From positions 1 to 42,093 of the IMG/VR virus record IMGVR_UViG_3300032050_009133: 42,093 nucleotides of DNA, one strand, 5' to 3'. Source of the stretch: a virus. Shown piece after piece: positions 141 through 25,192 of the stretch. The translations under genes and the position numbers were made by a program. The number at the start of each line of letters is the position of its first letter. Position 1 is the stretch's first letter. Under the pieces are notes generated by a model. The model was not told the DNA's origin and searched no databases. It saw nothing but the letters and a program-made list of their open reading frames with translations.

Positions 141-242
141 ATGAGAACATATAATTTTACTGTAGCGGACAGACTATATACAATAGTGGCTAGTAACTTC
201 AATCAGGCCCTGACACAACTGCGTCAACAACTGGGATTATAA
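141..242 (+). CDS. Very small hypothetical protein (33 aa)
   Basis: ATG at 141 follows the previous stop by one base, and the TAA at 240-242 overlaps the ATG of the next gene (TAATG). This tight spacing is the main reason to call it. The product starts MRTYNFTVADRLYTIVASNF and ends with a glutamine/leucine-rich helix. It has no membrane segment or cysteine. Function is unknown; it could be a translational coupling peptide for the next gene. Confidence 0.5.
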   Translation: MRTYNFTVADRLYTIVASNFNQALTQLRQQLGL

Positions 243-649
243 TGAGAAACTTTATCAACATGTTAGAGGCTTTGGAACGTGGTTGCCCTCCTGCCACGCA
301 AAGCATTGACCTCAATCTAAAAAATCGTCAAAAGGCCATAGAAGAATATCACTATGGTCCGCTAAATCCTGCGGAGCCCAATGAAGAATACTGGGCAGAG
401 TTGGCTGACAAGTGGAACACCGATGACATTGAATCAGTCAAGGCCAATCGTTGTGGGAACTGTGCGGCCTTTGACATCTCAGAAGACATGTTGGATTGCA
501 TTGCCAAGGGCATTGGCAGCGAACCCGGCTCAGACGCTCATGATACTATAGATGCAGGCGATCTAGGCTATTGCAAGTTTTTAAAATTCAAGTGTGCGGC
601 CAAACGCACCTGTGATGCTTGGGTTGAAGGCGGCCCTGTAACAAAATGA
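242..649 (+). CDS. Conserved phage-type cysteine-rich protein, possible metal or Fe-S binder
   Basis: 135 aa. The C-terminal half carries six cysteines: CGNC at about residues 77-80, one at 91, then CKF, KCAAKRTC and DAW near the end. The pattern CxxC...C...CxxF...C...C-x-A-W recalls small Fe-S or zinc proteins of the HiPIP-like type, but this is a resemblance only. The N-terminal half is acidic and helical. The gene starts inside the TAATG overlap with the upstream gene and its stop overlaps the next start (ATGA), so it is translationally coupled on both sides. Function is unknown. Confidence 0.7.
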   Translation: MRNFINMLEALERGCPPATQSIDLNLKNRQKAIEEYHYGPLNPAEPNEEYWAELADKWNTDDIESVKANRCGNCAAFDISEDMLDCIAKGIGSEPGSDAHDTIDAGDLGYCKFLKFKCAAKRTCDAWVEGGPVTK

Positions 650-1362
650 GAGCTGAAGAATTCCTGATTGAGCGTTGGACCAAAAAGACTGTGTCTGACT
701 ATTATGATCACAAAAAAGATCTTAAATTCACCAACAAGGATGTCAGGGTCAGTCAACCCTTTGATGGCTGTGTGGTGTTGAGATATCGCACTGTGCCTGA
801 TGCGGCCCGTAGTTTTTTCCGTGTGGCCGAATACTATGATGGCAAACACTATGGCAGTGGCGTACGACAAGTTAGCTTGCCGGAATTCTTGGACAACTGG
901 ATGGACCGACAGGGAAATGTGGACTACTTCAAGTTCTGGGATGGGTTCAACATTCCAGATCGTGCTTTCAGATCATGGCTTAAATCAGCCAGACCTTTGT
1001 CCAATGCCGAACAGGTCATGGTGGATGCCGTGCGTAAGAACACACAAGGCCAGAAAAAGTTTTGTGTGATTGGTGTGGGCTCAGATGATCCTGATACCAT
1101 ACGACACGAAATGTTCCATGCTAGATATTATTTAGATTCTGCATTCAAAACGGCTGTAGACGGCTTGATCAAATCACATAAGAACCACAGTGATTTCAAA
1201 ACCATTCAACGTGTGCTGATCAAAAAGTTAGATTATGTAAATCATGTGGATGAAGAAACTGCGGCCTATTTGTATGCAGGATCGCAACTGAAGTTGGTAT
1301 TTGGCGTTGATGCCAAAGATCTAGTAAAAGCATTCCGAGAATTGGACAAAAATGAGAGCTGA
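646..1362 (+). CDS. Zincin-like (HExxH) protein with possible capsid-targeting N-terminus
   Basis: 238 aa. Residues 154-158 read HEMFH, a perfect HExxH zinc metallopeptidase motif, in the context DTIRHEMFHARYY. A DEETAAYL segment about 45 residues later could supply a glutamate third ligand, as in gluzincins. The N-terminus MRAEEFLIE matches that of the next gene (MRAEEFVSE), although the two proteins are otherwise unrelated. It resembles the T4 capsid-targeting peptide of internal proteins (EFIAE, cut after Glu). A protease-like protein packaged in the head and injected early is therefore possible but unproven. The start overlaps the previous stop by four bases. The motif is seen directly; the protease role is inferred. 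Confidence 0.7.
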   Translation: MRAEEFLIERWTKKTVSDYYDHKKDLKFTNKDVRVSQPFDGCVVLRYRTVPDAARSFFRVAEYYDGKHYGSGVRQVSLPEFLDNWMDRQGNVDYFKFWDGFNIPDRAFRSWLKSARPLSNAEQVMVDAVRKNTQGQKKFCVIGVGSDDPDTIRHEMFHARYYLDSAFKTAVDGLIKSHKNHSDFKTIQRVLIKKLDYVNHVDEETAAYLYAGSQLKLVFGVDAKDLVKAFRELDKNES

Positions 1363-1879
1363 AGAATTTGTCAGCGAGAAATGGAGCCGGAAATACAAAC
1401 GCTCTATAGATTGCTCTAACCCCAAAGGCTTTAGTCAGCGGGCGCATTGCCAAGGTCGTAAAAAGAATGAAGATCTAGATGAATTTGCACCACCAGGCGG
1501 CGATGACCGCGAGCCAAACGAAGAAGAAATACTACATCGGCTGGCCGCACAATGGTGGCAGGGGGATGAAGACCCACGTGCCGAACGCACACTGGCTACT
1601 ATGGGCTGGGAAATAGGCCAAGATGAAGGCTATGACAATGGCGGTGCTTTTGTTGTTCGTGCTGGAGATATCAACGGTAACAGTTTTATTTCGTGGCCAG
1701 CAGAAGAATTAGAATCTCATCAGCTCGATGAACTCATGTTCAAAGGTAGTCAGTGTACCAAAGACTGCTCAGGACATCGTGCAGGATACGAGTGGAGTGC
1801 CCGCAAAGGCAATCGCACTGCTAATTCATGGAGCCAGAGTTTTAACAACGGGGCTGCCATACGCAATGCAGGAAGATAA
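1352..1879 (+). CDS. Phage protein with MRAEEF tag and two cysteine motifs
   Basis: 175 aa. The N-terminus MRAEEFVSEKW is followed by a basic motif, CSNPKGFSQRAHCQGRKK (about residues 21-38). An acidic middle and a C-terminal motif CTKDCSGHRAGYEWS with a polar tail follow. Both cysteine motifs look like small domains found in proteins of marine T4-like phages, from memory and without a search. The start lies 11 bases inside the upstream zincin-like gene, and the first 20 or so bases around the start are nearly identical to that gene's, giving the shared tag. It could be a second packaged internal protein. Enzymatic function is unknown. Confidence 0.7.
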   Translation: MRAEEFVSEKWSRKYKRSIDCSNPKGFSQRAHCQGRKKNEDLDEFAPPGGDDREPNEEEILHRLAAQWWQGDEDPRAERTLATMGWEIGQDEGYDNGGAFVVRAGDINGNSFISWPAEELESHQLDELMFKGSQCTKDCSGHRAGYEWSARKGNRTANSWSQSFNNGAAIRNAGR

Positions 1880-1880
1880 C

Positions 1881-1952
1881 ATGAACGAATATCCAGTATA
1901 TCCAGAAGACGATGGCTATGATCGTCATCGCAATCCTTATTCACCAGTATGA
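1881..1952 (+). CDS. Very small hypothetical protein (23 aa)
   Basis: ATG at 1881 lies one base after the previous stop, and the TGA overlaps the next start (ATGA at 1949-1952). The product MNEYPVYPEDDGYDRHRNPY plus SPV is rich in Tyr, Pro and Asp. An alternative ATG at 1866 would add six residues. The call rests on fit and coupling only; function is unknown. Confidence 0.45.
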   Translation: MNEYPVYPEDDGYDRHRNPYSPV

Positions 1953-2476
1953 GATTGAACGAAATACAATTGGGTCGTAGTGTTACCTACAATTTCTACG
2001 ATATCTATTCCTTGGTCAAACAGCGAGAAGGACGTCCGGGCTTGACCATACGCCTGCGCAATGACCGTCCAGCAGAAACAAAAAAGTCAGGCATTTATGT
2101 TTGGAAACATCCTGACTGGGGATATTTCTATGTAGGCATTGCCGCCGCTGACAACTTCACAGCACGTTGGCACAAACACATCCAAAAGTTATTGGATCAG
2201 TGTACATCGGCTGCACAGATGCACAACTGGAAACAGTTTGCCGATCGATTTGCCGCGGCCGGTTATGGCATTGATGATTTAAAAGATGTACAACTGCGTT
2301 TCTATCCTATAACCACTGTGGCACAGCACGGTAACAAAGAACAATTAAAACAAGAACTCAAAGCCATTGAAGACCGACTCACTGCCTGGCTCAATCCTGC
2401 CTGTAACTATCAGCACGATCCTGCACGGCCCAGTGCTACACGATATCCTCCACCGAGGACACCCAACACACCTTAG
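1949..2476 (+). CDS. GIY-YIG domain nuclease-like protein
   Basis: 175 aa. The segment SGIYVW, then YFYVGIA about ten residues later, and FTARWHKHIQKL matches the GIY, YIG and conserved Arg helix of GIY-YIG endonucleases. EDRLTAWLNPACNYQ later in the protein fits the catalytic Glu/Asn region. In phages this fold occurs in homing and Seg-type enzymes and in DNA-processing nucleases. No DNA-binding C-terminal domain is evident, so homing is not supported. The N-terminus MRLNEIQLG is distantly like the MRAEEF tag of its neighbours. The start overlaps the preceding stop (ATGA). Confidence 0.75.
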   Translation: MRLNEIQLGRSVTYNFYDIYSLVKQREGRPGLTIRLRNDRPAETKKSGIYVWKHPDWGYFYVGIAAADNFTARWHKHIQKLLDQCTSAAQMHNWKQFADRFAAAGYGIDDLKDVQLRFYPITTVAQHGNKEQLKQELKAIEDRLTAWLNPACNYQHDPARPSATRYPPPRTPNTP

Positions 2477-8306: not shown

Positions 8307-8950
8307 TTAGAGATGTAGTACGATACAAAGCACCTCCAGTTTGGGGAGTGCTTTGCATTGACATTTGGCAAGATGACACCAACAATGAGTTTTATCAAAA
8401 TGCCTTGACTCAGTTAGCCCAATATCCCATTGCTGGAGTAGTAAACTGTACAACCAATATAGTCATTGACTATTCAGATAAAAGCATTTATAATACACTT
8501 AAGAACTATCATTGGGCTGCCGACACTATCAACAGTCAGGTCAATGATAATGCCCTGTTTGATTTGATTAAAAATGCTGGTGAGTGTCAGACAACTCAAC
8601 TCATCCACGACAAATTATTTGATCAACAAACGGTGCACCTAAGTAGAAGAGAAACTTTTATACACCAAGGGCATTACTATTGGCCAGAAATACAGGATTG
8701 GATTATTTTAGGAAGTGCATGGGGCAAATGTGTTCATTATGGACCGTTGGGCGTGGATACATTGGTAGAAATGCCTAACCATAGATTTCATATTTTCCCT
8801 GACTGGAGCATACAAACTGAGGACAAGCAACCGCCAACTACTCAACAGATACACGATGATTTTTTTGTGTGGGCTCCTATAGACCACGGCGGGTACAGAT
8901 TGATAACACGAGCAAAGAACCACAAATGGACAGAGAACCAGAACAACTAG
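8303..8950 (+). CDS. Unknown protein, distantly isochorismatase-like
   Basis: 215 aa, GTG start overlapping the clamp stop (GTGA); there is no clear Shine-Dalgarno, so coupling is likely. It starts with a hydrophobic strand ending in a conserved-looking WQDD (GVLCIDIWQDD) and has DWIILGSAWGKCVHYGPLGV near residue 135. That resembles the strand-Gly-x-x-x-x-Cys-Val segment of isochorismatase/nicotinamidase folds. The protein at 27714-28214 has the same plan (VMVHVWEDD and LFGGLHKDLCVRG), so the two may be diverged paralogues. The usual catalytic lysine is not evident. Function is unknown. Confidence 0.5.
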   Translation: MIRDVVRYKAPPVWGVLCIDIWQDDTNNEFYQNALTQLAQYPIAGVVNCTTNIVIDYSDKSIYNTLKNYHWAADTINSQVNDNALFDLIKNAGECQTTQLIHDKLFDQQTVHLSRRETFIHQGHYYWPEIQDWIILGSAWGKCVHYGPLGVDTLVEMPNHRFHIFPDWSIQTEDKQPPTTQQIHDDFFVWAPIDHGGYRLITRAKNHKWTENQNN

Positions 8951-10470
8951 TACAGGACAATTTAACTGCTAAACAAAGCGACTATGCTGTGTTTCTTCCA
9001 GCCATCAGTAGTTTCTATGCTGGTTACATTGGTCGCGAACGACATGGCGTAGGACTTGACGCAGGCAGATTGCCAGCAGGCATTGGTGACATGGAGGGCA
9101 TGAACTGGTTGAATCCTCAGAAAGCATTGTTTCCGTATCGTTGGAGTTTGTATTCAGCAGGTCATGCCAACTTGGATTTAAACAAGTTTGATGCCAAAGA
9201 AGACATGGTTCGCAACAGAGATCCCAACACCATCATGTTGGCAGACTCAGGCGGGTTCCAGATTGCCAAAGGTGTATGGCCCGGACGTTGGGCAGACCCC
9301 ACAGATAAAAAAGCTGAAGCACAACGAGAGAAAGTTCTTAAATGGCAAATGGGCATATCCACCTATGGTATGACCATGGATATTCCCACATGGACCTTCC
9401 GTGACCCTGTGGCAGCCAAAGCATCGGGCATTCACAGCTATGATGACGCAGTCAGCGCCACACAATACAACAATGAGTTTTGGATTGCCAATCGCTTTGG
9501 TGATACCAAGATCTTAAACGTATTACAAGGTGGTAATCATGCCGAAGCTGATCACTGGTATGATCTAATGAAACACTACAGTGACCCCAACAAGTACCCA
9601 AACCGGCATTTCAATGGCTGGGGCATGGGCGGTCAGAACATGTGTGATGTACACTTGGTTCTCAAACGCTTGGTACATTTAATTCATGATGGCTTGCTGG
9701 AAAAGGGCGTACATGATTGGATGCACTTCTTGGGCACATCAAAACTAGAATGGGCAGTATTGCTTACAGACATTCAACGTGCTATCCGCAAATATCACAA
9801 TGCCAACTTTACCATATCGTTTGACTGTGCTTCACCGTTCCTGGCCACAGCCAATGGACAGATTTATACGCAACTTCGCACAGCCAATCGTGGCAAGTGG
9901 TCATACATGATGAGCCCCACAGCTGATGACAAAAAGTATGCCACAGACACTCGCACCTTTAGAGATGCTGTGTTACAGGATAACATACATGATGTGTTTG
10001 AAGACTCACCAATTTCTGCTAGAATGGCTATCAAAGATGTTTGCATTTACAAACCTGGTGACCTAAATAAGATCGGTAAAGAAGGTCGTACTTCGTGGGA
10101 TTCATTCTCTTATGCATTGATGATGGGTCATAATGTTTGGCACCATATTCGAGCAGTGCAAGAAGCCAATCGACGCTATGATGCAGGCGAGTCACCAGAC
10201 ATGATGGTACATCCAATTAACCCAGACTTTGATGTACGCCCTATTATAGATCAAGTGTTTGCGGCTCGTGATCGCCAAAAGAGCTTGGCCATAATTGATG
10301 AGTATGCTACAATATGGGAAAGAGTAGTGGGCACAAGAGGCTTTACTGGTAAACGTGCCACCAATGCTCACACTATGTTTAATAACTTATTTGACGTTGA
10401 AGAAGAAGTTGTGCCCGCAGAAGAATTTGACGAAACCTTGCTAGACCAACTAGAAAATCAAGTGCAATGA
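8926..10470 (+). CDS. dpdA: DpdA/TGT-like transglycosylase for 7-deazaguanine insertion into DNA
   Basis: 514 aa. Hallmarks of the tRNA-guanine transglycosylase superfamily are present: D107-S-G-G-F-Q (the base-exchange Asp and GGFQ), VLQGGNH at about 199-205, GWGMGGQNM at 231-239, and SFDCAS at 298-303, with D300 in the place of the TGT nucleophile. Phage members (DpdA) exchange guanine in DNA for a 7-deazaguanine, protecting it from restriction. folE, queD and queE elsewhere in the window support DpdA rather than a tRNA enzyme. ATG 8926 is preferred; an in-frame ATG at 8869 lies deeper in the upstream gene. DNA versus tRNA substrate is inferred. Confidence 0.82.
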   Translation: MDREPEQLVQDNLTAKQSDYAVFLPAISSFYAGYIGRERHGVGLDAGRLPAGIGDMEGMNWLNPQKALFPYRWSLYSAGHANLDLNKFDAKEDMVRNRDPNTIMLADSGGFQIAKGVWPGRWADPTDKKAEAQREKVLKWQMGISTYGMTMDIPTWTFRDPVAAKASGIHSYDDAVSATQYNNEFWIANRFGDTKILNVLQGGNHAEADHWYDLMKHYSDPNKYPNRHFNGWGMGGQNMCDVHLVLKRLVHLIHDGLLEKGVHDWMHFLGTSKLEWAVLLTDIQRAIRKYHNANFTISFDCASPFLATANGQIYTQLRTANRGKWSYMMSPTADDKKYATDTRTFRDAVLQDNIHDVFEDSPISARMAIKDVCIYKPGDLNKIGKEGRTSWDSFSYALMMGHNVWHHIRAVQEANRRYDAGESPDMMVHPINPDFDVRPIIDQVFAARDRQKSLAIIDEYATIWERVVGTRGFTGKRATNAHTMFNNLFDVEEEVVPAEEFDETLLDQLENQVQ

Positions 10471-12907: not shown

Positions 12908-14099
12908 ACTATACTACATGGGACTCGAGAGTTACGAGGCTCGATATACTCTACAATTAACAGAGTGGAACCGCCGTGTGTTTGATCGTCGAGGCCTTGA
13001 TGTAGTATATGTGCCAGGCAATACCATTGACAATACGCAAAGTATTTCAGTAGGACAGGTCTTGGACGCACATGGTCGTAGTTATTTTTCAATGAGCCAG
13101 ATGATGAATCTAGTTCAAATGATGAGAAACGGAGAAGTCACAAATGAAGATGTTATCTACTTTGAAGACATGTTTCAGCCCGGTATCGAGAGCTTACCTT
13201 ATATTCTCGATCAAGTGTCTGAGTCTCTGCGTCCTCGCATTTATGTACGCTGTCTTGCTCAGGCCATTGACCCGGATGATTTCGTTCATGTTTGGGGCAT
13301 GGCAGAGTGGATGTCAACGTATGAAAAAATGGTTAACTGCTTCGTAACTGGTGTTCTAGCCACAAACGAAGAGATGGTTGCCCACATGCGCATTGCAGGC
13401 TGGCGGGCACCCATTTATAATATTTCAGGCTTGGCATTTGGCAAAGCGGAAGTGCTAGAGCGCATAGGTGGTGCTGACAAGATTAAACCTTTTGAACAAA
13501 GACAAAAGCGTGTGGGCTTTGCCGCACGTTTTGACCAAGAGAAACAACCAGGCTTTTTCATGGACCTAGCTGAAGAATATCAGAAAGTGTACAAGGACGT
13601 GAGCTTTGCTGTGTTCTCAGGTGGCCCGTTGCGATCAAACAATCCTGACTATGTAAAACGTGCTCGCAAGATGAGTGACGAAGGTACACTACAGATTTTT
13701 GAAAACTTATCTAAAAATGATTACTACGCTCTTGTTAATGATAGTCGTGTGTTGTTTAATTGCGCCCTTCAAGATTGGGTTTCCAACACAGTCAGTGAAG
13801 CAGATACTCTTGGGTGTAATGTTCTATACCCTGCTTATAGGTCTTTCCCTGAAACTTTTGCTAATGACCCTGACAGGCTTTACATTCCCTGGAGTGAAGA
13901 TGACCCATTCAACAAACTGGCTTTGTTACTCGAAAAACCACATCACAACATGGGCTTGATTTCTGATTGGAACAACGGCACAGTGGATCGTATCGTTGAC
14001 ATCCTTGAAGGTTCTGGCGAACAGTGGTTGCGTAGTGGTGCTCGATATCGTGACCATGTGGCCCATGCCAAATATCCTGTGGTAAAGGTCGAACAATGA
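12900..14099 (+). CDS. GT-B fold glycosyltransferase
   Basis: 399 aa from a GTG at 12900, chosen because GGAG lies 6 bases upstream and the first residues (RKLYYMGLESYEARYTLQL) are a typical first strand; ATG 12918 is an alternative. The N-terminal half covers the acceptor domain. The C-terminal half has KRVGFAARFDQEKQPGFFMD, SFAVFSGGPL and NDYYALVNDSRVLFNCALQD, followed by NTVSEADTLGCNVLYP. This is the GT4-type donor-binding order, with E in the SEA segment binding the nucleotide sugar. It likely transfers a sugar to a glycan or modified nucleobase. It heads a sugar unit with galE. Confidence 0.75.
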   Translation: MRKLYYMGLESYEARYTLQLTEWNRRVFDRRGLDVVYVPGNTIDNTQSISVGQVLDAHGRSYFSMSQMMNLVQMMRNGEVTNEDVIYFEDMFQPGIESLPYILDQVSESLRPRIYVRCLAQAIDPDDFVHVWGMAEWMSTYEKMVNCFVTGVLATNEEMVAHMRIAGWRAPIYNISGLAFGKAEVLERIGGADKIKPFEQRQKRVGFAARFDQEKQPGFFMDLAEEYQKVYKDVSFAVFSGGPLRSNNPDYVKRARKMSDEGTLQIFENLSKNDYYALVNDSRVLFNCALQDWVSNTVSEADTLGCNVLYPAYRSFPETFANDPDRLYIPWSEDDPFNKLALLLEKPHHNMGLISDWNNGTVDRIVDILEGSGEQWLRSGARYRDHVAHAKYPVVKVEQ

Positions 14100-15043
14100 A
14101 AGTTGTCGTCACCGGAGCCGCAGGGTACATTGGCGGCGAAACTCTAATCAAATTGGTTGATGCCGGGCATGATGTACTTGCCATTGACCGTGTAATGCCC
14201 CCGGGCAATTTGATAACAGTACCCTGTTCTTGGCACACAGGAGACTTTGCCAGCGATCTAGGTCTGGATGCAATCAAACTGTTCTGCCCAGACGCCATCA
14301 TACATTGTGCTGGTACTAGCCTGGTTGGACCCAGTGTGATGAATCCTGAAGAGTACTACAATAACAATTTTGTCAAGACCAAAATTCTGTTGGATTTCTT
14401 AATTGCAAATCATCAAAAAAATGTTCGAGTAATATTCAGTTCCAGTGCGGCCACCTATGGTGAACCTATCATGACACCGTGCCAGGAGGAAGACCCTGCT
14501 ATTCCCATTAGCCCCTACGGTGAAAGCAAGCTCATGGTTGAACTAATGATGAAAAGTTATGCCACAGCATATTCTTTAGATTTTGTGGCATTCCGTTATT
14601 TCAATGCCTGTGGTGCTGACAGTCAAGGGCGACATGGACAAGCACCTGGAGCCACACACATCATTGCTCGAGTGCTTGAAAGTATTAGAGATGGAAAAAC
14701 GTTTACTCTCTACGGTGACAGTTACTCCACTCCAGATGGCACTTGCATTAGAGATTATATACATGTGGAAGATCTTGCTGACGCACATGTCATGGCCATG
14801 AATCCTGCAGTTCCCATTGGTATTTTTAATCTAGGAACCAATCAAGGATTTAGCAATCGTGATATTATCAACATGGCTGAAAAAATAACAGGACAACGTG
14901 TTGATCTAGAAATTGGTGCAATTCGTGCAGGAGATCCAGCTGTGCTTACTGCATCCGCAGACCGATTTAATTCTCTAGGATGGGCTCCTAAATTTTCTTT
15001 GGAGCACATGGTTCAACATGCTTGGGCCTGGTATACTAGATGA
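14096..15043 (+). CDS. galE: UDP-glucose 4-epimerase-like SDR enzyme
   Basis: 315 aa. TGAAGYIGGETL near residue 6 is the NAD-binding glycine motif. SSSAATYGEP and PYGESKLM supply the Ser and YxxxK catalytic residues. YFNACGADSQGRHGQ and CIRDYIHVEDLADAH are strong GalE signatures. GalE interconverts UDP-glucose and UDP-galactose (or the GlcNAc forms). It is a little shorter than the bacterial norm of about 338 residues but complete in motifs. Start overlaps the glycosyltransferase stop, so substrate supply and transfer are co-translated. Confidence 0.88.
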   Translation: MKVVVTGAAGYIGGETLIKLVDAGHDVLAIDRVMPPGNLITVPCSWHTGDFASDLGLDAIKLFCPDAIIHCAGTSLVGPSVMNPEEYYNNNFVKTKILLDFLIANHQKNVRVIFSSSAATYGEPIMTPCQEEDPAIPISPYGESKLMVELMMKSYATAYSLDFVAFRYFNACGADSQGRHGQAPGATHIIARVLESIRDGKTFTLYGDSYSTPDGTCIRDYIHVEDLADAHVMAMNPAVPIGIFNLGTNQGFSNRDIINMAEKITGQRVDLEIGAIRAGDPAVLTASADRFNSLGWAPKFSLEHMVQHAWAWYTR

Positions 15044-15618
15044 GCTTTAAGTCTCTATTTGACTTTGAATCGGCCTTGGCAGAATATACCGGAGCACCGT
15101 ATGTAGTAGTAACCGACGGGTGTACACATGCCATTGAATTGTGCATGAGGTATGACGAGGTCAAAAAAACCAAATTCACGGCCTATACCTATTTGAGTGT
15201 GCCCATGCTCATGCATCATCTTGACATTGATTATGAAATGCTTACCGAAAAGTGGTCCGGAGAATATCAATTCTATGGCACAAGAATCTGGGATTCGGCT
15301 CGTAGATTAGAACGAAACATGTACAATTCTGGAACCATGCAGTGCTTGAGTTTTGGCTGGACCAAACCATTGCAGTTGGGCAAGGTAGGTGCCATCTTGT
15401 TAGATGATGCAGACGCTTACCGTACAATGAGTCGACAACGCAGTGATGGTAGAGACTTACACGTACCTTGGGAAACTGAAACAGATTTAATTTTAGGATA
15501 TCACTACTGTCCTACCTTGGAATTGTGTGCCAAGGGGCTAGAATTATTGCCCACGGTCAATGAACAACCTAAATACGTCCAATATCCAGACTGTAGAAAT
15601 TTTATAATAAAGGACTAA
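15040..15618 (+). CDS. Miniature DegT/DnrJ/EryC1-type PLP protein
   Basis: 192 aa, about half the family length. The order of motifs follows sugar aminotransferases: an N-terminal APYVVVTDGCTHAIEL segment, RIWDSARRLE in the position of the PLP-stacking DxA segment, then SFGWTK with K109 as candidate PLP lysine. LGKVGAILLDD and LGYHYCPTLELCAKGLELL (normally GYNYRMS...QAA) follow. The large loop regions and the C-terminal small domain are missing. It may be a trimmed enzyme or a PLP-binding relative. Start overlaps the galE stop (ATGA), so it probably acts in the same sugar pathway. Confidence 0.7.
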   Translation: MSFKSLFDFESALAEYTGAPYVVVTDGCTHAIELCMRYDEVKKTKFTAYTYLSVPMLMHHLDIDYEMLTEKWSGEYQFYGTRIWDSARRLERNMYNSGTMQCLSFGWTKPLQLGKVGAILLDDADAYRTMSRQRSDGRDLHVPWETETDLILGYHYCPTLELCAKGLELLPTVNEQPKYVQYPDCRNFIIKD

Positions 15619-16177: not shown

Positions 16178-16225
16178 AGTAACAAGACTGGTCATCCTCG
16201 ACCTTAATAACTCGGAGAATTGGTA

Positions 16226-17047
16226 ATGCCAAACAATAAAGAACAAATTTTTGACGTGATCAAAAGCAGTCAAATAGTTAGCGAAGCCCCGTATCATCCT
16301 GGCTACGAAGATGCGGCCCTGGGCCCAATTGCATTTGACGAAGATAAAAACTATAAAGAATCATATTTAGGCGATCATATTCGCTTTAAGATGAAGCGTG
16401 AAGGTAAACGTTTTTGGGCAGGCGACAATATCAGCGATTATCTACATGAAGGTGATAAAGAGAAACTAATCGACGAAGCCACAGAAGCATTTGAACTAGT
16501 GCTGGATCGTTTGTTGATCGATCGTGAAAACGATCCTAACTCACGAGGCACGGCTCGTCGACTTGCTAAAATGTATTTTAATGAAATAATGGAAGGTCGA
16601 TATGATCCAGCACCAGATGCAACAGCTTTTCCAAATGATTCAGAAGATAGATACGAAGGCATGTTGGTTGTTCGTAGCGAACTGCGTTCTATGTGCAGTC
16701 ATCATCATCAACCTGTGTCTGGTGTTGCTTACATTGGAATCATCGCCGCTAATAAACTTATTGGCTTGTCTAAATATACTAGGATCGCTCAGTGGTGTGC
16801 TCGTCGTGGCACACTTCAAGAAGAACTATGTAACGACATCGCCCGAGAAATAATGAAGGCCACAGCAAGTGAGAATGTTGGTGTGTATATCCAAGCCACA
16901 CACGGATGTTGTGAGAATCGCGGCATCATGGCACACTCTAGTCTAACACAGACCACAGTGCTCAAAGGTGTGTTCCAAACAGATCCTGCAACCAAGAAAG
17001 AATTCATGGACAATATCAAACTACAACAGGAGTTTGCTCCACGATGA
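16226..17047 (+). CDS. folE: GTP cyclohydrolase I
   Basis: 273 aa. The zinc-site residues are C157-S-H-H160 and C228 in THGCCENRG, matching the C/H/C triad of GTP cyclohydrolase I. NKLIGLSKYTRIAQW and the terminal LTQT segment are family signatures. It converts GTP to dihydroneopterin triphosphate, the first step to folate and to 7-deazaguanines. An N-terminal extension of about 50 residues makes it longer than the 222 aa E. coli enzyme. ATG 16226 is chosen since GGAG lies 8 bases before it, whereas an upstream in-frame TTG at 16220 is too close. With queD, queE and dpdA, this points to DNA modification. Confidence 0.92.
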   Translation: MPNNKEQIFDVIKSSQIVSEAPYHPGYEDAALGPIAFDEDKNYKESYLGDHIRFKMKREGKRFWAGDNISDYLHEGDKEKLIDEATEAFELVLDRLLIDRENDPNSRGTARRLAKMYFNEIMEGRYDPAPDATAFPNDSEDRYEGMLVVRSELRSMCSHHHQPVSGVAYIGIIAANKLIGLSKYTRIAQWCARRGTLQEELCNDIAREIMKATASENVGVYIQATHGCCENRGIMAHSSLTQTTVLKGVFQTDPATKKEFMDNIKLQQEFAPR

Positions 17048-17146: not shown

Positions 17147-17176
17147 TTGACCTAAAAATCCAGGTTGTGTTATACT
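17147..17176 (+). promoter_or_regulatory. Sigma-70-type promoter for lipoprotein gene
   Basis: TTGACC (17147-17152) and TATACT (17171-17176) with an 18-base spacer. The start site would fall near 17183, about 24 bases before the ATG at 17207, which supports that start over the longer frame from 17165. Confidence 0.72.
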
Positions 17177-17206
17177 TTTTACAGTATAACTAGTCTGGAT
17201 TTTTCA

Positions 17207-19585
17207 ATGGTATTTCGGAAAACTGTTTTATCTGTTTCAATATCTTCAATGATGATTGCTCTCTCTGGTTGTGGAGGCGGCGGTGGTGGAGGGGGCGGAG
17301 GCTATGGCGGTGGTTATTTAAGATCAGAAGTTCCGTACCATACCCCAGTACGTGTTGCCACTGCTATAGATCCACTAACCAAAGTAGATGGTGCGGCTCC
17401 AGTATTTGATATCTTTGATGCCAACATCACCGGCAGTGGCAACGATATCATACTGGCTGGTCGACAGACACAGTATGCCACACCTGAAACCTGGAGCAAT
17501 AGTAAACTTACACTGCTGGCCTGGGAAAGTGGTACCCTAGTTGATCGAACCGCACAATGGTTTCCTGGAGGTATCAACGAAATCCTAGGTACAGAACCCA
17601 GTGTGAAGTTTGCGGATTTATTCAACACAGGACGTCAAGACATGTTGGTGGCCCCTAGCACGGACATGCAACACTACGGCCCTGGATATGTATTTTCTAA
17701 TCAAGGCACACATTTCAATCGTATCTCTATTCCATTGACCAATGTTTGGGCGCACGACAGCGCCATTGCAGACATGGACGGAGACGGTTTTAAAGATCTA
17801 CTATTTGTAGATTACGGGCCCAACACCACATTGGCTATCAACAACCGAGTAAACAACTTTACACCCTACATTGACAGTAGAGGCAACGCTGGCGATTTGC
17901 GATGGGGCGGTTCTAGTATCGTAGCAGATGATTTTTTACAAAACGGACAAAAACAAATCATTGTAACTGATAATGCTTGTAACACTGCCAATGCCGCATG
18001 CAGTGACACACGCACTACCAAGATGTATAGCTACACCATCGTTGGAGGGCAACTAAACTATCAATACATAGCCGATCTTCCTGCACCATTGTTGGATCAC
18101 AATGTGAGAGTAGTGTCGCACGATTTCAACGAAGATGGACGACCAGACGCCATTGTTTTTAGCCGTCTTGGTTTTCACACCAAACAAAGTGCCATCCAGT
18201 TCCTAAAAAACAATGGGTCGGCTGTGTTCCAAGATGTAACCACAGACACATTGGTTGGGTATGATACCAATACCTATTCTACCTATAACCCTAGATTCTT
18301 GGATGTCAACGGTGATGGCCGTACCGACATCATGGTCAGTGCCACGGACTTTTCTGGCAATCATAATAGTACACAGGTGCTGTTAAAAAGCTCTGAAGGA
18401 AAATATGTAGCCGCTCATCAAAAAATATTCACAGACTTTTTGAAACAGGCCGCATCCATGACAGCTGGCCTGGGCTCGGGTGCCAATGAAGCCAACAGCA
18501 CAGTAAACATTTTTCAAGCACCAGATGGTAAACTATATCTTGTGACCATGATTGTTTATGAAACTGGCAACGATAAAAAGATGGCTGTGTACATGAGTCA
18601 AATGGGCACACAAACCACATTAACAGCACAAGCCGCCGTGGATTTAATCAAACAGAAATGGCCGTATATGAGTACAGCCGCCGCCAATGCAGTGCTGGCA
18701 CAGACTGCGGCCACTTACTGGAACGGCAGTGTGATAGATCTAGAAGCCGCGCTGAGACCTATAGGAGCTCTTAGTATAGGAGCAAAAATGCTGTCAGGCC
18801 ATGTGAGCGGAATTGACATAGGGTCAGGGCAGATGATAGCCATGGACGCTCTACAAAGACCTTTCATGATCAACGCTAGGCCAATGAATGTCACAGGGCT
18901 TGACGCTTTCCAAAGAAACAACTTTATGGGAGCTGATCACGACTTGGCCACACCTGCTGAATTTTTAACTGGTTCCAGAGCTAACATTGTAAATGGCCTA
19001 CGTATTGCCGGGGACCAATCATCCAGCGACCCTGGCGGTGGACAGTACAGCATAGGTATTCCTGCAGTATGGAAGAAAGATTCCTGGGCCTTTGGGTCAC
19101 AATATACAAGACTCAATTTCAATCCTTGGGTTAGTTTCAGCGGAGTTTGGGGAACAGTGCGGTCATCTTCGGTGTTTGACAACGTGGTATCATATCGTCA
19201 GGGCGGGTTTGTTGCCAAAGCCAGTTTGATGTATGTGACTACTGACATCAATCCGGGCTTGATCACTCGCATAAGTCCTACCATAGGCACTTGGGCCGAA
19301 GCAGGATACCGCTGGGGTGATAAGAAAAACGACATGGGCATTTACTTTGGGCAAGCGCCACGTGTACTCAGTGGTCAGGTTGAAGCCAATGTGCCCACTT
19401 CGTTTGACAGCTCGGGGCAATTAGTTTATACTAAACAAAACCTAGATATTCTAAGAACACCTACCTATTATGTTCGAGGAGTATATAGCAAACAGATTGA
19501 CAAGCGGACGCAGTTTAGATTCAATGCGGCCACTAGCACTATAGGGCAGTATCGAATCATGAATGAATTATTATGGAGTTTTTAA
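17207..19585 (+). CDS. Lipoprotein with FG-GAP repeats and outer-membrane-like C-terminus
   Basis: 792 aa. A signal peptide (FRKTVLSVSISSMMIALSGC) ends in lipobox LSGC with C22 as lipidation site, followed by ten glycines as tether. Three calcium-binding FG-GAP/VCBS-type motifs follow: DMDGDGFKD (189), DFNEDGRPD (306) and DVNGDGRTD (366), as in beta-propellers. The last 230 residues look like amphipathic strands ending in the aromatic LLWSF, typical of outer-membrane barrels, and resemble autotransporter-like C-termini. It is likely exported to the surface of the infected cell, perhaps for adhesion or superinfection exclusion. Its own promoter makes it moron-like. Host origin is inferred. Confidence 0.78.
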   Translation: MVFRKTVLSVSISSMMIALSGCGGGGGGGGGGYGGGYLRSEVPYHTPVRVATAIDPLTKVDGAAPVFDIFDANITGSGNDIILAGRQTQYATPETWSNSKLTLLAWESGTLVDRTAQWFPGGINEILGTEPSVKFADLFNTGRQDMLVAPSTDMQHYGPGYVFSNQGTHFNRISIPLTNVWAHDSAIADMDGDGFKDLLFVDYGPNTTLAINNRVNNFTPYIDSRGNAGDLRWGGSSIVADDFLQNGQKQIIVTDNACNTANAACSDTRTTKMYSYTIVGGQLNYQYIADLPAPLLDHNVRVVSHDFNEDGRPDAIVFSRLGFHTKQSAIQFLKNNGSAVFQDVTTDTLVGYDTNTYSTYNPRFLDVNGDGRTDIMVSATDFSGNHNSTQVLLKSSEGKYVAAHQKIFTDFLKQAASMTAGLGSGANEANSTVNIFQAPDGKLYLVTMIVYETGNDKKMAVYMSQMGTQTTLTAQAAVDLIKQKWPYMSTAAANAVLAQTAATYWNGSVIDLEAALRPIGALSIGAKMLSGHVSGIDIGSGQMIAMDALQRPFMINARPMNVTGLDAFQRNNFMGADHDLATPAEFLTGSRANIVNGLRIAGDQSSSDPGGGQYSIGIPAVWKKDSWAFGSQYTRLNFNPWVSFSGVWGTVRSSSVFDNVVSYRQGGFVAKASLMYVTTDINPGLITRISPTIGTWAEAGYRWGDKKNDMGIYFGQAPRVLSGQVEANVPTSFDSSGQLVYTKQNLDILRTPTYYVRGVYSKQIDKRTQFRFNAATSTIGQYRIMNELLWSF

Positions 19586-20065: not shown

Positions 20066-20590
20066 ATGGCAAAATATCTTTCAACAAAAACATACGGCAA
20101 CGACAGAGGGCTGTCATGCTGTTTTCGCCAATGGCGTAGTACACATAGTCACTGCTCGTTGCTACATGGATACTCGATTGGCATCAAGTTGATATTTGAA
20201 AGTGAAACCTTGGACGACCGTAACTGGGTCATGGACTTTGGTGGTCTCAAAGCATTCAAAGAGTGGAGCGAATGGCAATTTGATCACACCCTGGTCATTG
20301 CCGAAGATGATCCTCATCGTGCTATGTTTGAGAAGATGGCCGGCTTGGGGTTACAAGACAAAGGTGGTGTGTGCGATATTCGTATTGTCAATGGTGTAGG
20401 TTGCGAAAAGTTTGCTGAACTTGCCTACAAAGAAATGGCCGCTATACTGCATATTTTTAAGAACGGCAATACTTACTACTGCCCCAATGGACAAACATTT
20501 GAGGCACGCTATCCTGTGGGGCAGGGTGTAAAATTGCATTCAGTGGAAGTGTTTGAACATGCTGGTAACAGTGCTATATATGAAGGATGA
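20066..20590 (+). CDS. queD: QueD-like 6-carboxytetrahydropterin synthase
   Basis: 174 aa. STHSHCSLLHGYSIGI contains the catalytic-type Cys (C30) four residues before H34-G-Y36. WVMDFGGLKAF, WQFDHTLVI and VEVFEHAGNSAIY match the later QueD elements, including the His of DH and the C-terminal Glu. It turns the FolE product into 6-carboxytetrahydropterin. In E. coli QueD the zinc ligands are H16, H31 and H33. Here H33 is Tyr36 and the first ligand position is unclear (C18, C19, H27 or H29), so metal binding has diverged. A TAGGAG site precedes the ATG. Confidence 0.82.
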   Translation: MAKYLSTKTYGNDRGLSCCFRQWRSTHSHCSLLHGYSIGIKLIFESETLDDRNWVMDFGGLKAFKEWSEWQFDHTLVIAEDDPHRAMFEKMAGLGLQDKGGVCDIRIVNGVGCEKFAELAYKEMAAILHIFKNGNTYYCPNGQTFEARYPVGQGVKLHSVEVFEHAGNSAIYEG

Positions 20591-20592: not shown

Positions 20593-21450
20593 ATGAGTAA
20601 AACTCCGCCAGTGGGTGTAAACAAATTATGGGCCAAGCCTGCTACGCATGAAATATCAGTGCTATTGCCCACCCGTGGTAGAACCGACATGCTAAAAAGA
20701 AGCTTGTTGAGTTTGCTTGACCTAGCCAAAAATCCAACCGAGATGGAAATATTGTTGGCCTTTGACAACGATGACAAACAATCACTTGAATGGTGTCAAC
20801 AAAATATTTTTCCAGAATTAGAATCACGTGGAGTTGATGCCACAGTGGTTGAGTTTACTCCATTGGGTTATCTCCGACTACACGAATACCTCAATGCTCT
20901 AGCTGGGTTGGCCAACGGGCAATGGTTGATGTTCTGGAATGACGATGCAGTGATGCAGACTCAGGATTGGGATCAACGTATCACCGAGCACAATGGTAAG
21001 TTTTTATGTTTAAGGATGCCCACTCATAATCAACATCCCTATGCTATCTTTCCTATAGTGCCCAGAGACTGGTACTATCTATTGGGACATCTCAGCAACC
21101 ATCAACTTACTGACGCTACTATCAGTCAAATATCCTATATTACAGGTATCATGAAAAACATTGATGTCGAAGTGTTACACGACAGATTTGACATCACTGG
21201 TAACAATCGAGACACAACATTTAACAATCGTCCCATGCTGGAAGGTCGTCCCGATGATCCGCGAGACTTTAATCACGTGACTTTTCGTAACAAGCGAGTA
21301 AACGATGCCAACAAGATTGCATGGTATTTAGAACGCATTGGTCAGTCCAGCGAGTGGTTTACAAAAGTCATGCTGGGACAACAGAACCCCTGGGAATACA
21401 TGTGCGGCAAGGAACAGGATCCAAATGGTCAGGTAGCTATACATGATTAA
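20593..21450 (+). CDS. GT-A (family 2-like) glycosyltransferase
   Basis: 285 aa from ATG 20593, preferred because AAGGA ends 5 bases upstream; ATG 20587 overlaps the queD stop but leaves no room for the ribosome site. ISVLLPTRGRTDMLKRSLLS is the nucleotide-binding N-terminus. LLAFDNDD and WLMFWNDDAVM give the DxD-type metal/UDP motif (NDDA). The rest is less conserved. It probably transfers a sugar, in a block of sugar-nucleotide genes that follows immediately. The acceptor is unknown. Confidence 0.78.
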   Translation: MSKTPPVGVNKLWAKPATHEISVLLPTRGRTDMLKRSLLSLLDLAKNPTEMEILLAFDNDDKQSLEWCQQNIFPELESRGVDATVVEFTPLGYLRLHEYLNALAGLANGQWLMFWNDDAVMQTQDWDQRITEHNGKFLCLRMPTHNQHPYAIFPIVPRDWYYLLGHLSNHQLTDATISQISYITGIMKNIDVEVLHDRFDITGNNRDTTFNNRPMLEGRPDDPRDFNHVTFRNKRVNDANKIAWYLERIGQSSEWFTKVMLGQQNPWEYMCGKEQDPNGQVAIHD

Positions 21451-22231
21451 CATTGATCAACACTTATTAGATAAAATCAAGGCCTATTGGAATCGGCAAC
21501 CTTGCAACATCCTACATGGTCGCAGTGAGCTAGGCACCGCAGAGTTCTATCAAGAAGTCTCAGAACGCAGATATCGTGTGGAACCTCATATCAGAGAATT
21601 TGCTGGATTCCATCTTTGGGCTGGCAAACGTGTGCTAGAGATTGGATCTGGCATTGGCAGTGATGCCGAAGAGTTTGCCAAACGTGGCGCTGAATATGTG
21701 GGTGTAGACTACAGCGATCAAAGTGTGGAGATTGCTAGACAACGCTTTAAAGTTTTAGAACTTGAAGGAGAGTTCCACAACATTGATGCCAGTGATACTG
21801 CGGCCTTGACAGCACTAGGTCAGTTTGATCTTGTGTACAGCTATGGTGTTATCCATCATTTTCCAGCCATTAACACAATCGTTGACAACGTTCATCGCGT
21901 ACTCAAACCCGACGGAGAGTTTCGTTTCATGGTGTATGCCAAGAACTCCTGGAAGTATGCCATGATACAAAAAGGTCTAGATCAGTTTGAAGCACAAAGC
22001 GGTTGTCCATATGCACAGGCCTACTCCAGAGAAGATATCCATCGTATGTTGGACAGTCAATTTCACATAGAACGCCTGCGCCAAGACCATTGCTTTATGT
22101 ACAATGTACCAGCATACAAGTCTGGAAATTATGAACTTGAACCTTGGTTTGAGGCCATGCCCGACGATGTTCGGCAAGCCGTAAAAGAATATCTAGGCTG
22201 GCATTTGCTGGTCAAAGCGAGGAAAATTTGA
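21443..22231 (+). CDS. Class I SAM-dependent methyltransferase
   Basis: 262 aa. VLEIGSGIGSDAEEF is motif I, YVGVDYSDQSVEIARQRF motif II, FDLVYSYGVIHHF motif IV, and RVLKPDGEFRFMVYA motif VI. All are intact, so SAM binding is very likely. The position among glycosyltransferases and sugar dehydratases suggests a sugar or glycan O- or C-methylation, but the substrate cannot be read from sequence. Start overlaps the glycosyltransferase by 8 bases, and the stop overlaps the next TTG start. Confidence 0.88.
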   Translation: MINIDQHLLDKIKAYWNRQPCNILHGRSELGTAEFYQEVSERRYRVEPHIREFAGFHLWAGKRVLEIGSGIGSDAEEFAKRGAEYVGVDYSDQSVEIARQRFKVLELEGEFHNIDASDTAALTALGQFDLVYSYGVIHHFPAINTIVDNVHRVLKPDGEFRFMVYAKNSWKYAMIQKGLDQFEAQSGCPYAQAYSREDIHRMLDSQFHIERLRQDHCFMYNVPAYKSGNYELEPWFEAMPDDVRQAVKEYLGWHLLVKARKI

Positions 22232-23178
22232 AAAGAGTAGTGTATGTGACAGGCTGTCTGGGGTTCATGGGCATACATGTCACGCGAGCATGTCTAGCCG
22301 CAGGGTACTATGTCATAGGAGTAGACAAGATGACCTATGCCAGCAACGTCTGGGCTCTGGGCGAATTCCTAGAGAATACTCACTTCAAGTGGATACAAAA
22401 AGATATCAACGATCTCGACCGGTTAGTAGATTGTGACTACGTCATCAACATGGCCGCAGAAACTCATGTAGACAATAGTATCATGAGCAGTGGTGTGTTT
22501 TTGCATTCTAACATAGATGGCGTACATCATCTGCTAGAGTTGATCAAGCAGATACCACGATACAAACAACCAGTGTTGTTGCATTTTTCAACAGATGAAG
22601 TGTATGGCGACATCGAACGTGGAAGCCATAGCGAGCTTGATCTATTAAAACCCAGCAACCCTTATTCGGCCAGCAAGGCCGCCGGCGACATGTTGATCAC
22701 TGCCTGGGCTCGCACCTACGGTATAAAATATGTCATCGTGCGTCCCACTAACAATTATGGCGTGGGACAATACGTGGAAAAACTCATACCTAAATCTATC
22801 AAGTATCTAACACTCGGACGCAAAATCGACTTGCACGATCAGGGTAAGCCGGTGCGCACTTGGTTACATGCGTTAGATACCGCACGAGCAGTAATCACTA
22901 TCATTGAGCATGGTGGAGCAAATGAGATTTATAATATCAGTGGCAATACAGAACTGCCCAACAGAGAAGTGATCAAAAAAATCTTGCATCTCTATCATGG
23001 TGAAAGCAAAGATCACTGCTGGGAAGACTATATCATGGACAGCCAGCGTGAAGGTCAGGATATTCGATACAGTATAGATGATTCAAAATTGAAATCATTG
23101 GGATGGGTACCTCAAACAGATTTTGACACTGCGTTGATTGAAATAGTTAATCACTACAGGAATAATTTTGTATGGTAA
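22228..23178 (+). CDS. RmlB-like nucleotide-sugar 4,6-dehydratase
   Basis: 316 aa from TTG 22228, preceded by GAGGA and overlapping the previous stop. VTGCLGFMGIHV is the NAD motif. GVDKMTYASN is the RmlB-type signature. HFSTDEVYGDI contains the TDE catalytic triplet, and NPYSASKAAGDML has YxxxK. RPTNNYGVGQYVEKLIPKSI follows as in RmlB. It should convert an NDP-glucose into the 4-keto-6-deoxy form. With the RfbH/DdhC-type gene downstream, a CDP-glucose substrate is as likely as dTDP-glucose. The first protein residue is Met despite TTG. Confidence 0.87.
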   Translation: MKRVVYVTGCLGFMGIHVTRACLAAGYYVIGVDKMTYASNVWALGEFLENTHFKWIQKDINDLDRLVDCDYVINMAAETHVDNSIMSSGVFLHSNIDGVHHLLELIKQIPRYKQPVLLHFSTDEVYGDIERGSHSELDLLKPSNPYSASKAAGDMLITAWARTYGIKYVIVRPTNNYGVGQYVEKLIPKSIKYLTLGRKIDLHDQGKPVRTWLHALDTARAVITIIEHGGANEIYNISGNTELPNREVIKKILHLYHGESKDHCWEDYIMDSQREGQDIRYSIDDSKLKSLGWVPQTDFDTALIEIVNHYRNNFVW

Positions 23179-23876
23179 AAAATTACCTGGTGAGTGCAGT
23201 ACGACCTATCCGCAATGGCTGGATGGATGCTGATAGCACACAGCTCTACAAAGACTATAGAGAAATGTATGAGATCAGTCTGGCTAGTTTTCGTCGATTT
23301 GTCAAAGAACCTTTTGAATCTGTGCTATGGGAAGATCCAGTTGACGACAATGAATCTTATACCAAAGCTAATTGGAAAGAAATAAAAGATCTCTGGCACC
23401 GAGAACCTTGCAACATATTCTGGGCAGGAGCCGATACTTTGATGCTGAAGCCCACCGGTTTGTTTAGTGATCGATTCCAGGAATATAGATTGTTTAATCA
23501 CACTGATCCTAGAGAAATCAACGGTCAGCCATACTATAACAACGACTTACAATACTATCCACACACCATGCTCAAAGACATATGGAAATATGGTGACGAT
23601 CTTTGGGCACAATGTGAAACACACCCAGATCGTAATTGGGGCTTTGATCAACTAAGAAACAATGCTATGTTTTGGAGTCAGAAAGTGTCCGACCCTCATC
23701 ATCCCGAGATGGCGTATCAAGCCATGAACATGCGTAATCTTGATTTCAAAGTGATAGCCTGGCATGATCAATGGAACGGTATTACATTTGATCAAGCACA
23801 TATTTTGCACTTCCATGCCAGTCGTGGCAGCCATGCAGTAATAGACCTAATGAAAAAACTAAGTGACCGAACATGA
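23172..23876 (+). CDS. Glycosyltransferase-like protein, GT-A type suspected
   Basis: 234 aa. NIFWAGADTLMLKPTGLF (about residues 76-93) resembles the segment with the DxD-like motif in GT-A enzymes that hold UDP-sugar and metal. RNWGFDQLRNNAMFW and AHILHFHASRG resemble later acceptor and metal-binding pieces, the latter with HFH. The starting strand KNYLVSAVRPIRNGW is consistent. No precise family is recognised. It overlaps both neighbours, placing it in the dideoxysugar block. Confidence 0.6.
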   Translation: MVKNYLVSAVRPIRNGWMDADSTQLYKDYREMYEISLASFRRFVKEPFESVLWEDPVDDNESYTKANWKEIKDLWHREPCNIFWAGADTLMLKPTGLFSDRFQEYRLFNHTDPREINGQPYYNNDLQYYPHTMLKDIWKYGDDLWAQCETHPDRNWGFDQLRNNAMFWSQKVSDPHHPEMAYQAMNMRNLDFKVIAWHDQWNGITFDQAHILHFHASRGSHAVIDLMKKLSDRT

Positions 23877-25192
23877 AACACATATTAGATCAAATAAAAC
23901 AATATATCGAACAAAAACAATCTGCCAAGACCTGGGTAGCCGGCAAGGACTTTGTCAACTATGCAGGTCCGCATTTCAACTCCGACGAGTATGTGGCAGC
24001 CGCAGAAGCCTTGCTCAACGGCTGGCTGGTCATGGGCAACAAGAGCCTACGCTTTGAACAAAAGTTTCCCCGAGAATTTGGCAAGACACGCGGAGTGTTG
24101 ACCAACAGTGGTAGCAGTGCAAATCTCTTGATGATGACAGCCATGAAAAGCAAGCGTGGACATAACTTTCCACCGGGCACTAAAGTATTGATGCCCATTG
24201 CTGGATTTCCAACTACACTTAATCCAACCTTGCAAAATGGGTTTACACCAGTGTTTTGCGACATTGAAATTGATACCTTGAACATTGATTTGGATCACGC
24301 AGAACGTTTGCTTGCGGCTGATCCAGACATTAAAATTATTACATTTGCCCATGTGTTGGGCAATCCACCCAACATGGACCGTGTTATGGACTTGGTCAAC
24401 AAGCATAATTTAATCCTATTAGAAGATTGTTGCGATGGATTAGGAACAACTTACGATGGCAAGCCTTTGGGTAGCTTTGGTGAGATGGCATCGTGTAGCT
24501 TCTATCCAGCACATCACATGACCATGGGCGAAGGTGGCTTTGTGGCCATGAATGATCCACAGCAAGAAATCATTGTGCGTAGCCTACGTGAATGGGGACG
24601 TGGTTGCTATTGTGTAGGACCCGAGGCCAACAAATTAAAATGTGGCACCTGTGGCAAACGATTCAATGAATGGATTCCAGAAATGCCAGATCAGATTTTT
24701 GATCACAAGTATGTGTATGACGAAATTGGGTATAACTTAAAACCCATCGAACTACAAGCGGCCATGGGCCTTGAACAAATCAAAAAATTGCCAGAGATAC
24801 ATGCTCTACGGCAAAGAAACTACAATCTGTTGTTTGAGATCTATGAAAAATACGAACAGTTCTTCCACTTGCCACGTGCTAGAGAAAAAGCCAATGTCAG
24901 TTGGTTTGCTTTCCCATTGACCATACGTGCAGATTCTCCGTTCTCTCGCATGGACATTGTGGACTATTTAGAAGAAAACTTGATACAAACACGCCCATAC
25001 TTTGCTGGTAACATCATGTTGCAACCTGCGTACAGTCACCTGATGAATCCCGCAGAGGCACGTGATAACTATCCTGTGGCCACATTCACAATGAAGAACA
25101 CATTCTTCCATGGCTGTAGTCCAGTGATCACACCCGAGCAGATTGAGTACATTGGTGAAAAGGTCGACGGATTTATGAGTTTGTATCTATGA
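23873..25192 (+). CDS. rfbH: RfbH/DdhC-type CDP-4-keto-6-deoxyglucose 3-dehydratase
   Basis: 439 aa, like the 437 aa Yersinia E1 enzyme. SFYPAHHMTMGEGG carries His (H214/H215) where aminotransferases of the DegT family have the PLP lysine. This is the signature of 3-dehydratases. Cysteines C187, C245, C247 and C257 (spacing CX57CX1CX9C; C260 also near) match the [2Fe-2S] pattern known for E1 (CX57CX1CX7C) almost exactly. It should remove the 3-hydroxyl in 3,6-dideoxyhexose formation and would need an electron-donating reductase (E3/DdhD), not seen here. The preceding dehydratase would supply its substrate. Confidence 0.88.
   Translation: MKHILDQIKQYIEQKQSAKTWVAGKDFVNYAGPHFNSDEYVAAAEALLNGWLVMGNKSLRFEQKFPREFGKTRGVLTNSGSSANLLMMTAMKSKRGHNFPPGTKVLMPIAGFPTTLNPTLQNGFTPVFCDIEIDTLNIDLDHAERLLAADPDIKIITFAHVLGNPPNMDRVMDLVNKHNLILLEDCCDGLGTTYDGKPLGSFGEMASCSFYPAHHMTMGEGGFVAMNDPQQEIIVRSLREWGRGCYCVGPEANKLKCGTCGKRFNEWIPEMPDQIFDHKYVYDEIGYNLKPIELQAAMGLEQIKKLPEIHALRQRNYNLLFEIYEKYEQFFHLPRAREKANVSWFAFPLTIRADSPFSRMDIVDYLEENLIQTRPYFAGNIMLQPAYSHLMNPAEARDNYPVATFTMKNTFFHGCSPVITPEQIEYIGEKVDGFMSLYL

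Follow-up and report, generated by a model that had tools for sequence, protein, structure and literature searches.

An N-terminal tag shared by unrelated proteins of uncultured jumbo T4-like phages resembles the T4 capsid-targeting sequence

Two tagged genes at one end of the window

The window is the whole 42,093-nt stretch of viral DNA analyzed here (IMG/VR record IMGVR_UViG_3300032050_009133). Close to its first nucleotide lie two open reading frames, designated P1 and P2 (Table 1), the products of which begin with MRAEEFLIERWTKK and MRAEEFVSEKWSRK, respectively. The original prediction described these as two otherwise unrelated proteins that share one N-terminal tag encoded by almost the same 20 bases, and both points were borne out. 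BLASTP aligned P1 with P2 over residues 1–14 only (9/14 identical, E = 3e-4) and revealed no significant segment beyond them, and at the DNA level the 20-nt repeat is exact. The nine-residue tag is weakly prolonged in P1 and P2 to ∼14 residues, as E[RK]W[TS][KR]K. In an alignment of P1 with four orthologues, M1, R2, A3, E5, F6, L7, E9, R10, and W11 were invariant and residues 4 and 8 were variable; M1, R2, A3, E5, F6, E9, K10, W11, and S12 were invariant in P2 and nine relatives.

Table 1. Features at the P1-P2 locus (positions in the window)
Feature	Coordinates	Strand	Remarks
Cysteine-rich conserved gene, ends EGGPVTK*, untagged	242..649	+	Left neighbor of insertion
Direct repeat, copy 1, 20 nt exact, aaaATGAGAGCTGAAGAATT	643..662	+	Identical to 1349-1368
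Direct repeat, copy 2, 20 nt exact	1349..1368	+	With copy 1 flanks block 646-1351
706-bp inserted block between cysteine-rich gene and P2	646..1351	+	Bounded by tag repeat
P1, 238 aa, HExxH protein with N-terminal tag, putative cargo of the head	646..1362	+	
P1 tag, MRAEEFLIE	646..672	+	Targeting half MRAxEF; predicted cleavage half L-I-E
P1 HEMFH (HExxH), residues 154-158	1105..1119	+	Invariant in five aligned sequences
P1 E203-E204, candidate third metal ligand	1252..1257	+	Invariant in five aligned sequences
P2, 175 aa, mosaic cysteine protein with N-terminal tag, putative cargo of the head	1352..1879	+	
P2 tag, MRAEEFVSE	1352..1378	+	Aligned with nine relatives
P2 module 1 (KYKRSIDCSNPKGFSQRAHCQGRK)	1391..1462	+	Also in cyanophages
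P2 module 2 (EFAPPGGDDREPNEEEILHRLAAQWW...)	1472..1714	+	Separate gene in G005, L012
P2 module 3 (MFKGSQCTKDCSGHRAGYEWS...FNNGAAI)	1721..1876	+	Occurs separately in relatives
GIY-YIG family protein, start MRLNEIQLG	1949..2476	+	Pfam PF01541; N-terminus conserved in relatives

The four P1 orthologues are 61–73% identical to it, and P1 was assigned to no Pfam, PHROGs, or PADLOC family. It had been called zincin-like, a description that holds at the level of the motif only: the HExxH sequence (H154-E155-H158) is present together with the conserved downstream E203/E204, and no sequence match was found in the PDB. Given that the AlphaFold2 model is of low confidence (pLDDT 65) and gave no fold match there, the term zincin is not carried beyond the motif; one uncharacterized giant-virus model was matched by the P1 model (E = 1.7e-4). 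The HExxH motif and the conserved downstream glutamate suggest that P1 may be a metallopeptidase. An untagged P1 homologue, ORF432 of Xanthomonas phage XacN1, is 29% identical, reads HETRH at the motif, and contains PDETQAY in a match to DEETAAY of P1, which points to a P1 body that existed before the tag was added to it. Directly upstream of one P1 orthologue, in L113, lies a gene (L113:4318-10566) for a 2082-aa polyvalent-protein-like product with amidoligase, nucleotidyltransferase, and weak IrrE-like peptidase matches.

The name “cysteine-motif protein” originally given to P2 fits its sequence, which contains C21, C33, and a C..C in the C-terminal module. Behind the tag, P2 is made up of three separately shuffled modules. 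In cyanophages, module 1 follows the leader MKTFKQFQE or MKSFKQFQE at a site between gp16 and gp17; both leaders resemble the MKTFKEF of T4 IPI. Module 2 as a separate gene starts with MRLREFAPAGGDDR in G005 and with MRLYEFAPAGGDDR in L012; G005 (197 kb), G001 (343 kb), and G002 (337 kb) are IMG/VR records reached via P2 relatives. Module 3 stands alone behind a different tag, MRAQEFVVE, in L020 (66 aa) and immediately follows module 1 in L043, L051, and L054. The GIY-YIG protein encoded downstream of P2 is at most a candidate member of the tagged set: its start resembles the targeting half of the tag and lacks the cleavage half with its E.

Inspection of the remainder of the window by eye revealed four open reading frames (8869-10470, 16220-17047, 20066-20590, and 29122-30003) that resemble a tRNA-guanine-transglycosylase/DpdA-like protein, GTP cyclohydrolase I, QueD, and QueE, respectively, and may constitute a 7-deazaguanine DNA-modification pathway. 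By the same means, sugar-nucleotide epimerase, aminotransferase, methyltransferase, and paired thiamine-enzyme-like reading frames were noted at 14096-15618 and 21443-26351, a run that resembles surface-sugar synthesis clusters. An 806-aa reading frame (17165-19585), unusual for a T4-like phage, appears to begin like a lipoprotein and to contain an extended run of glycines (GGGGGGGGGG) as well as FG-GAP/VCBS-like repeats.

Occurrence and conservation of the tag

The pattern [KR]xxE[FY][ILVM]xE was found at 2 of the 59 gene N-termini in the window (P ∼1e-5) and at no internal site there. In the relative G001 it was found at 7 of 460 N-termini, where 0.01 would be expected (P = 1.5e-18). None of 1305 first-ATG reading frames on 90 random IMG/VR contigs started with M[KR]xx(x)E[FY][ILVM]xE, as against 49 of 1332 in loci carrying P1 or P2 relatives, and pure chance as the full explanation of the tag is rejected on this comparison. 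These loci were retrieved by P1/P2 homology, so part of the 49 are P1 or P2 orthologues; many belong to other families. As a positive control, the same scan of T4 yielded IPIII, with MKTYQEFIAE.

Approximately 65 distinct tagged N-termini were collected at or near the first ATG from the P1/P2-homologous loci and their large contigs, and with the tag removed these proteins fell into 14 similarity groups. A search of IMG/VR with the tag DNA alone (ATGAGAGCNNNNGARTTYATHNNNGAR) matched at least 120 contigs. Among the matches listed, 135 of 144 lay at the first ATG of an open frame, the other 9 had an in-frame ATG 2–78 codons upstream, and none of the 144 lay in a frame shorter than 40 codons. The bodies behind the listed matches formed 33 similarity clusters by single linkage; one of these clusters, with 76 members, may conceal or combine separate families. 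A control search with the pattern reversed, which leaves composition and degeneracy unchanged, gave no match in the whole IMG/VR collection. Pfam matches among the tagged proteins comprised GNAT acetyltransferases, GH19 chitinase-like proteins, HTH domains, DUF6321, and DUF6934, several of the GNAT and DUF6934 matches being weak; the tagged cargos scanned included no recognized ADP-ribosyltransferase. A search of isolated phages for relatives of the 59–75-aa and 141-aa tagged families returned none.

In an unbiased scan that took only M[KR]xxE[FY] as given, 87 N-termini at or near the first ATG were found versus 2 internal sites. Position 7 was I, L, V, or M in 67 of the 87 and position 9 was E in 61; R2 and A3 predominated, and positions 4 and 8 were free. 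The codons of the tag vary synonymously (GCA/GCC/GCT/GCG, 21/19/11/5; GAA/GAG, 39/22; TTT/TTC, 36/25) while the residues are kept, consistent with selection acting on the tag as a peptide. Where the spacing is altered, L/I-x-E is retained, as in MRLHEFVDLRE/NATITSGSIATV, MRLSEFVELKE, and MRFYEFSKLTE (a slash marks the predicted cut) and in MRFFEFKQQITE/RTLGGF compared with MRFFEFKEQQLLAE/RTLGGF. Some proteins carry the targeting half alone (MRASEFSNSKLVIFDIDDTLV and MRASEFSNSKLVIFDIDDTLVNTDT), and not every tagged protein need therefore be cleaved. Phosphatase-like proteins with the targeting half and no E9 were noted in L069, L043, and L054 (MRASEFSNSKLVIFDIDDTLVNTDT and similar) and, after P1, in L004; possibly these are packaged without cleavage.

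The tag and head maturation

The T4 prohead protease gp21 cuts after L/I-x-E, and in the capsid-targeting sequence (CTS) of IPIII, MKTYQEFIAE, targeting needs residues 4 and 7 and processing needs residues 8 and 10, a change at position 10 reportedly abolishing processing and leaving packaging intact (PMC9026906). F7, I8, and E10 of the T4 leader correspond to F6, [ILV]7, and E9 of the tag, and the two have in common a basic residue 2, the aromatic F, an aliphatic residue at the P3 position of the site, and E at its P1 position. Unlike the 10-residue CTS, the tag spans nine residues, with the consensus MRAxEF[ILV]xE. The P1 protein conforms to the gp21-site motif with L-I-E; V-S-E of P2 departs conservatively from strict L/I. 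Tags of T4 spacing, MKTFAEYLTE and MKNFQEYLAE, occur in G001 and G002, on proteins other than P1 and P2; in G001 the genes concerned are situated between head closure/tail tube genes and terminase.

The window, a 42-kb fragment, contains no gp21 and no head genes. The presence of a gp21-type protease, on which the original prediction had been made to depend, was judged on its close relative G001 (locus L008), the DNA polymerase of which is 95.6% identical to that of the window and in which the gene order is the same apart from P1. Genes for gp21 (PF03420) and gp23 (PF07068) are present in each of G001, G002, and G005, as well as in 8/8 contigs of at least 190 kb derived from the tag-DNA search. 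This makes 11/11 tag-bearing contigs of this size with both genes, a count that covers tagged contigs; none of the random contigs listed is as long as 190 kb. As expected of fragments, none of the smaller contigs tested had gp21 and none had gp23 above the curated cut-off.

In gp23 of the 11 genomes, L-x-E is present where T4 reads FLTE/A, the predicted sites being YLKE/NASAG, YLRE/NASSG, LLAE/SSVG, LLAE/SSAG, YLAE/SATAG, and YLME/SPTAG. The similarity extends beyond the site: YLKE/NASAGSTVSGNIATL of gp23 compares with EFIAE/NASAGATGSGSIATV and EFLPE/NATAGATGSGSIATV of small tagged proteins, and E/NASAGxTxSGxIAT is often shared between the two. Judged from sequence, no other single observation ties the tag to the capsid protease as strongly as this stretch, which is shared on both sides of the predicted cut. 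A tagged family of 59–75 residues (L032:2179-2379, L040:4317-4496, L044:492-689, and relatives) was observed to copy the gp23 sequence NASAGxTxSGxIAT behind its tag.

Four tagged genes of G001 are located at ∼320–324 kb, between genes for tail tube and head closure and those for a virion structural protein and terminase. Homologues of the MKTFAEYLTES protein occupy the matching place in Sinorhizobium phage Phosso and Agrobacterium phage Atu_ph07, and a homologue in Pseudomonas phage PA5oct is annotated as detected in the virion by ESI-MS/MS. The Atu_ph07 leader is MKTLQDYLTES, and those of Phosso and PA5oct (MKSFRDYYDAS) are without the E; the detection in PA5oct thus supports the family and not the tag. 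T4-type late promoters (TATAAATA) were not in excess near tagged genes, the combined counts being near or below the shuffled expectation.

The proposal that the tag is a capsid-targeting signal has passed every available sequence test (gp21/gp23 co-occurrence, L/I-x-E, and unrelated cargos) and is retained here as a probable reading. What the sequence shows in its favor is the tag and its repeated use by unrelated proteins, the genes for gp21 and gp23 that accompany it, the agreement with the gp23 site, and the exchange of cargo at the tag. We consider it probable that MRAxEF[ILV]xE serves a lineage of jumbo T4-like phages as a CTS-like N-terminal signal in two parts, and the nine-residue tag on P1 and P2 is very probably a detachable head-loading label like that of T4. 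The MRAxEF half would direct the protein into the prohead core, and the [ILV]-x-E half would be the site after which a gp21-type prohead protease cuts, that is, after Glu9; the cleaved cargo would then be free in the head and stay with the DNA. That tagged cargo is packaged and cleaved appears, from its sequence, quite likely. Its injection with the DNA into the next host is less certain, and we lean towards it. P1, a putative metallopeptidase, might cleave a protein of the host soon after infection begins, and P1 and P2 would be two among many exchangeable cargos.

A different role for packaged and cleaved cargo, as structural scaffold, core, or DNA-compacting protein instead of injected effector, is the alternative that survives best, and we regard it as rather unlikely. 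The P2 modules and the 59–75-aa family are short and look unlike enzymes, and this small family copies the gp23 sequence after the processing site, as such a role might lead one to expect; against this, other cargos match GNAT acetyltransferase, GH19, and HTH families, which would be unusual for a scaffold, and in T4 the internal proteins, whose leader is analogous, are inhibitors that the phage injects. Much less probable is that the tag addresses another site (replication compartment, membrane, tail, or baseplate) and that [ILV]xE serves another protease. Such a destination would suit the tagged proteins without E and the many tagged genes located close to the DNA polymerase and at a distance from head genes, but it is opposed by the match of the E site to the gp23 processing site in the same genomes, by gp21 in every one of the 11 large contigs, and by the position-by-position correspondence with the T4 CTS.

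Gene exchange at the tag and relation to known systems

The cysteine-rich gene to the left of P1 has orthologues in seven relatives (55–98% identical), and in L008, L009, L010, L011, L043, and L054 it is followed directly by P2. The first 18 nucleotides of P1 in the window are identical to the P2 leader of L011 (18/18) and match the leaders of its own orthologues at 14–16/18; nucleotides 19–60, conversely, match the orthologues at 25–33/42 and P2 at 12–16/42. The crossover therefore likely lay inside the tag, as judged from this one clear case. In L003, L004, and L005, P1 abuts other genes with related starts (MRSDEF, MRAQEL, and MRAREF).

Leader duplication had been offered from the outset as an alternative to capsid targeting, and at the DNA level it is right, P1 being a 706-bp insertion bounded by the tag. 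As a rival it would deny the leader any targeting function and see in it only a recent DNA duplication, a joint left by recombination, or a cassette for translation initiation. The exact 20-nt repeat that bounds the insertion, the closer match of the P1 leader to the L011 P2 leader than to its own orthologues, and the different MRA- or MRS-type neighbors of P1 in three loci agree with this, yet a leader of that kind is improbable in view of the synonymous DNA variation across families with residues 2, 3, 5, 6, 7, and 9 kept, the L/I-x-E that moves with the spacing, and the protein-level conservation among P1 orthologues. Pure duplication was rejected as the full explanation since it accounts for the joint and not for conservation of the peptide. 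Duplication of the leader does not compete with the capsid-targeting reading: a tag that is both peptide signal and recombination joint reconciles the two explanations first put forward. The balance tips slightly towards a plug-in cargo system in these uncultured jumbo T4-like phages, in which dozens of unrelated proteins (metallopeptidase-like, acetyltransferase, glycoside hydrolase, HTH, and phosphatase-like) bear one cleavable tag, their genes are swapped and fused by recombination inside the tag DNA, and the two halves of the tag are separable.

The internal proteins of T4 have only their leader in common and are injected (PMC12373910, PMC9026906, PMC3012670), and the GmrSD restriction enzyme that is blocked differs among IPI, IPII, and IPIII (PMC12373910). 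As with IPI, IPII, and IPIII, a short N-terminal leader is here common to otherwise unrelated proteins, gp21 and gp23 are encoded by the relatives, and tagged genes occur in runs. Unlike in T4, the tagged families of the lineage are far more numerous and belong to uncultured jumbo phages, the cargos extend to several hundred residues and match enzyme families, and fusions of tagged modules are frequent. T4 Alt, an injected ADP-ribosyltransferase with N- and C-terminal gp21 processing, is likewise an enzyme carried in the head with its N-terminus trimmed by gp21; in contrast to the tagged cargos, it has its own short propeptide.

The ejection (E) proteins of the giant phages phiKZ, 201phi2-1, and SPN3US are a further parallel: in those phages many head proteins are cut after Glu by a gp21-like protease, as predicted here for the tagged proteins, with S/A-x-E as the phiKZ cleavage motif. 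One common short leader among their propeptides was not reported in the literature searched, and, unlike those phages, the relatives studied here have T4-type gp21 and gp23 recognizable by Pfam. Polyvalent proteins with zincin-like HExxH metallopeptidase domains belong to the phage effectors for which packaging has been proposed (Iyer et al. 2017, PMC5512222). P1 likewise has HExxH and is putatively packaged, but differs in being a stand-alone tagged protein of 238 residues with no Pfam match to those domain families. A general tag in uncultured jumbo phages was found undescribed in the literature of one open-access library, a search that is no proof of novelty.

The genes that a phage injects as proteins are usually not known without virion proteomics. 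The tag yields a sharp and cheap test, namely semi-tryptic peptides that start directly after Glu9. With a recognizable cleavable tag, candidate injected proteins can be listed from metagenomes, including those without a recognizable family, and the tagged proteins are a rich source of candidate counter-defense or host-takeover proteins. The lineage that carries the tag would offer a second system, beside T4, in which to study the loading of proteins into phage heads.
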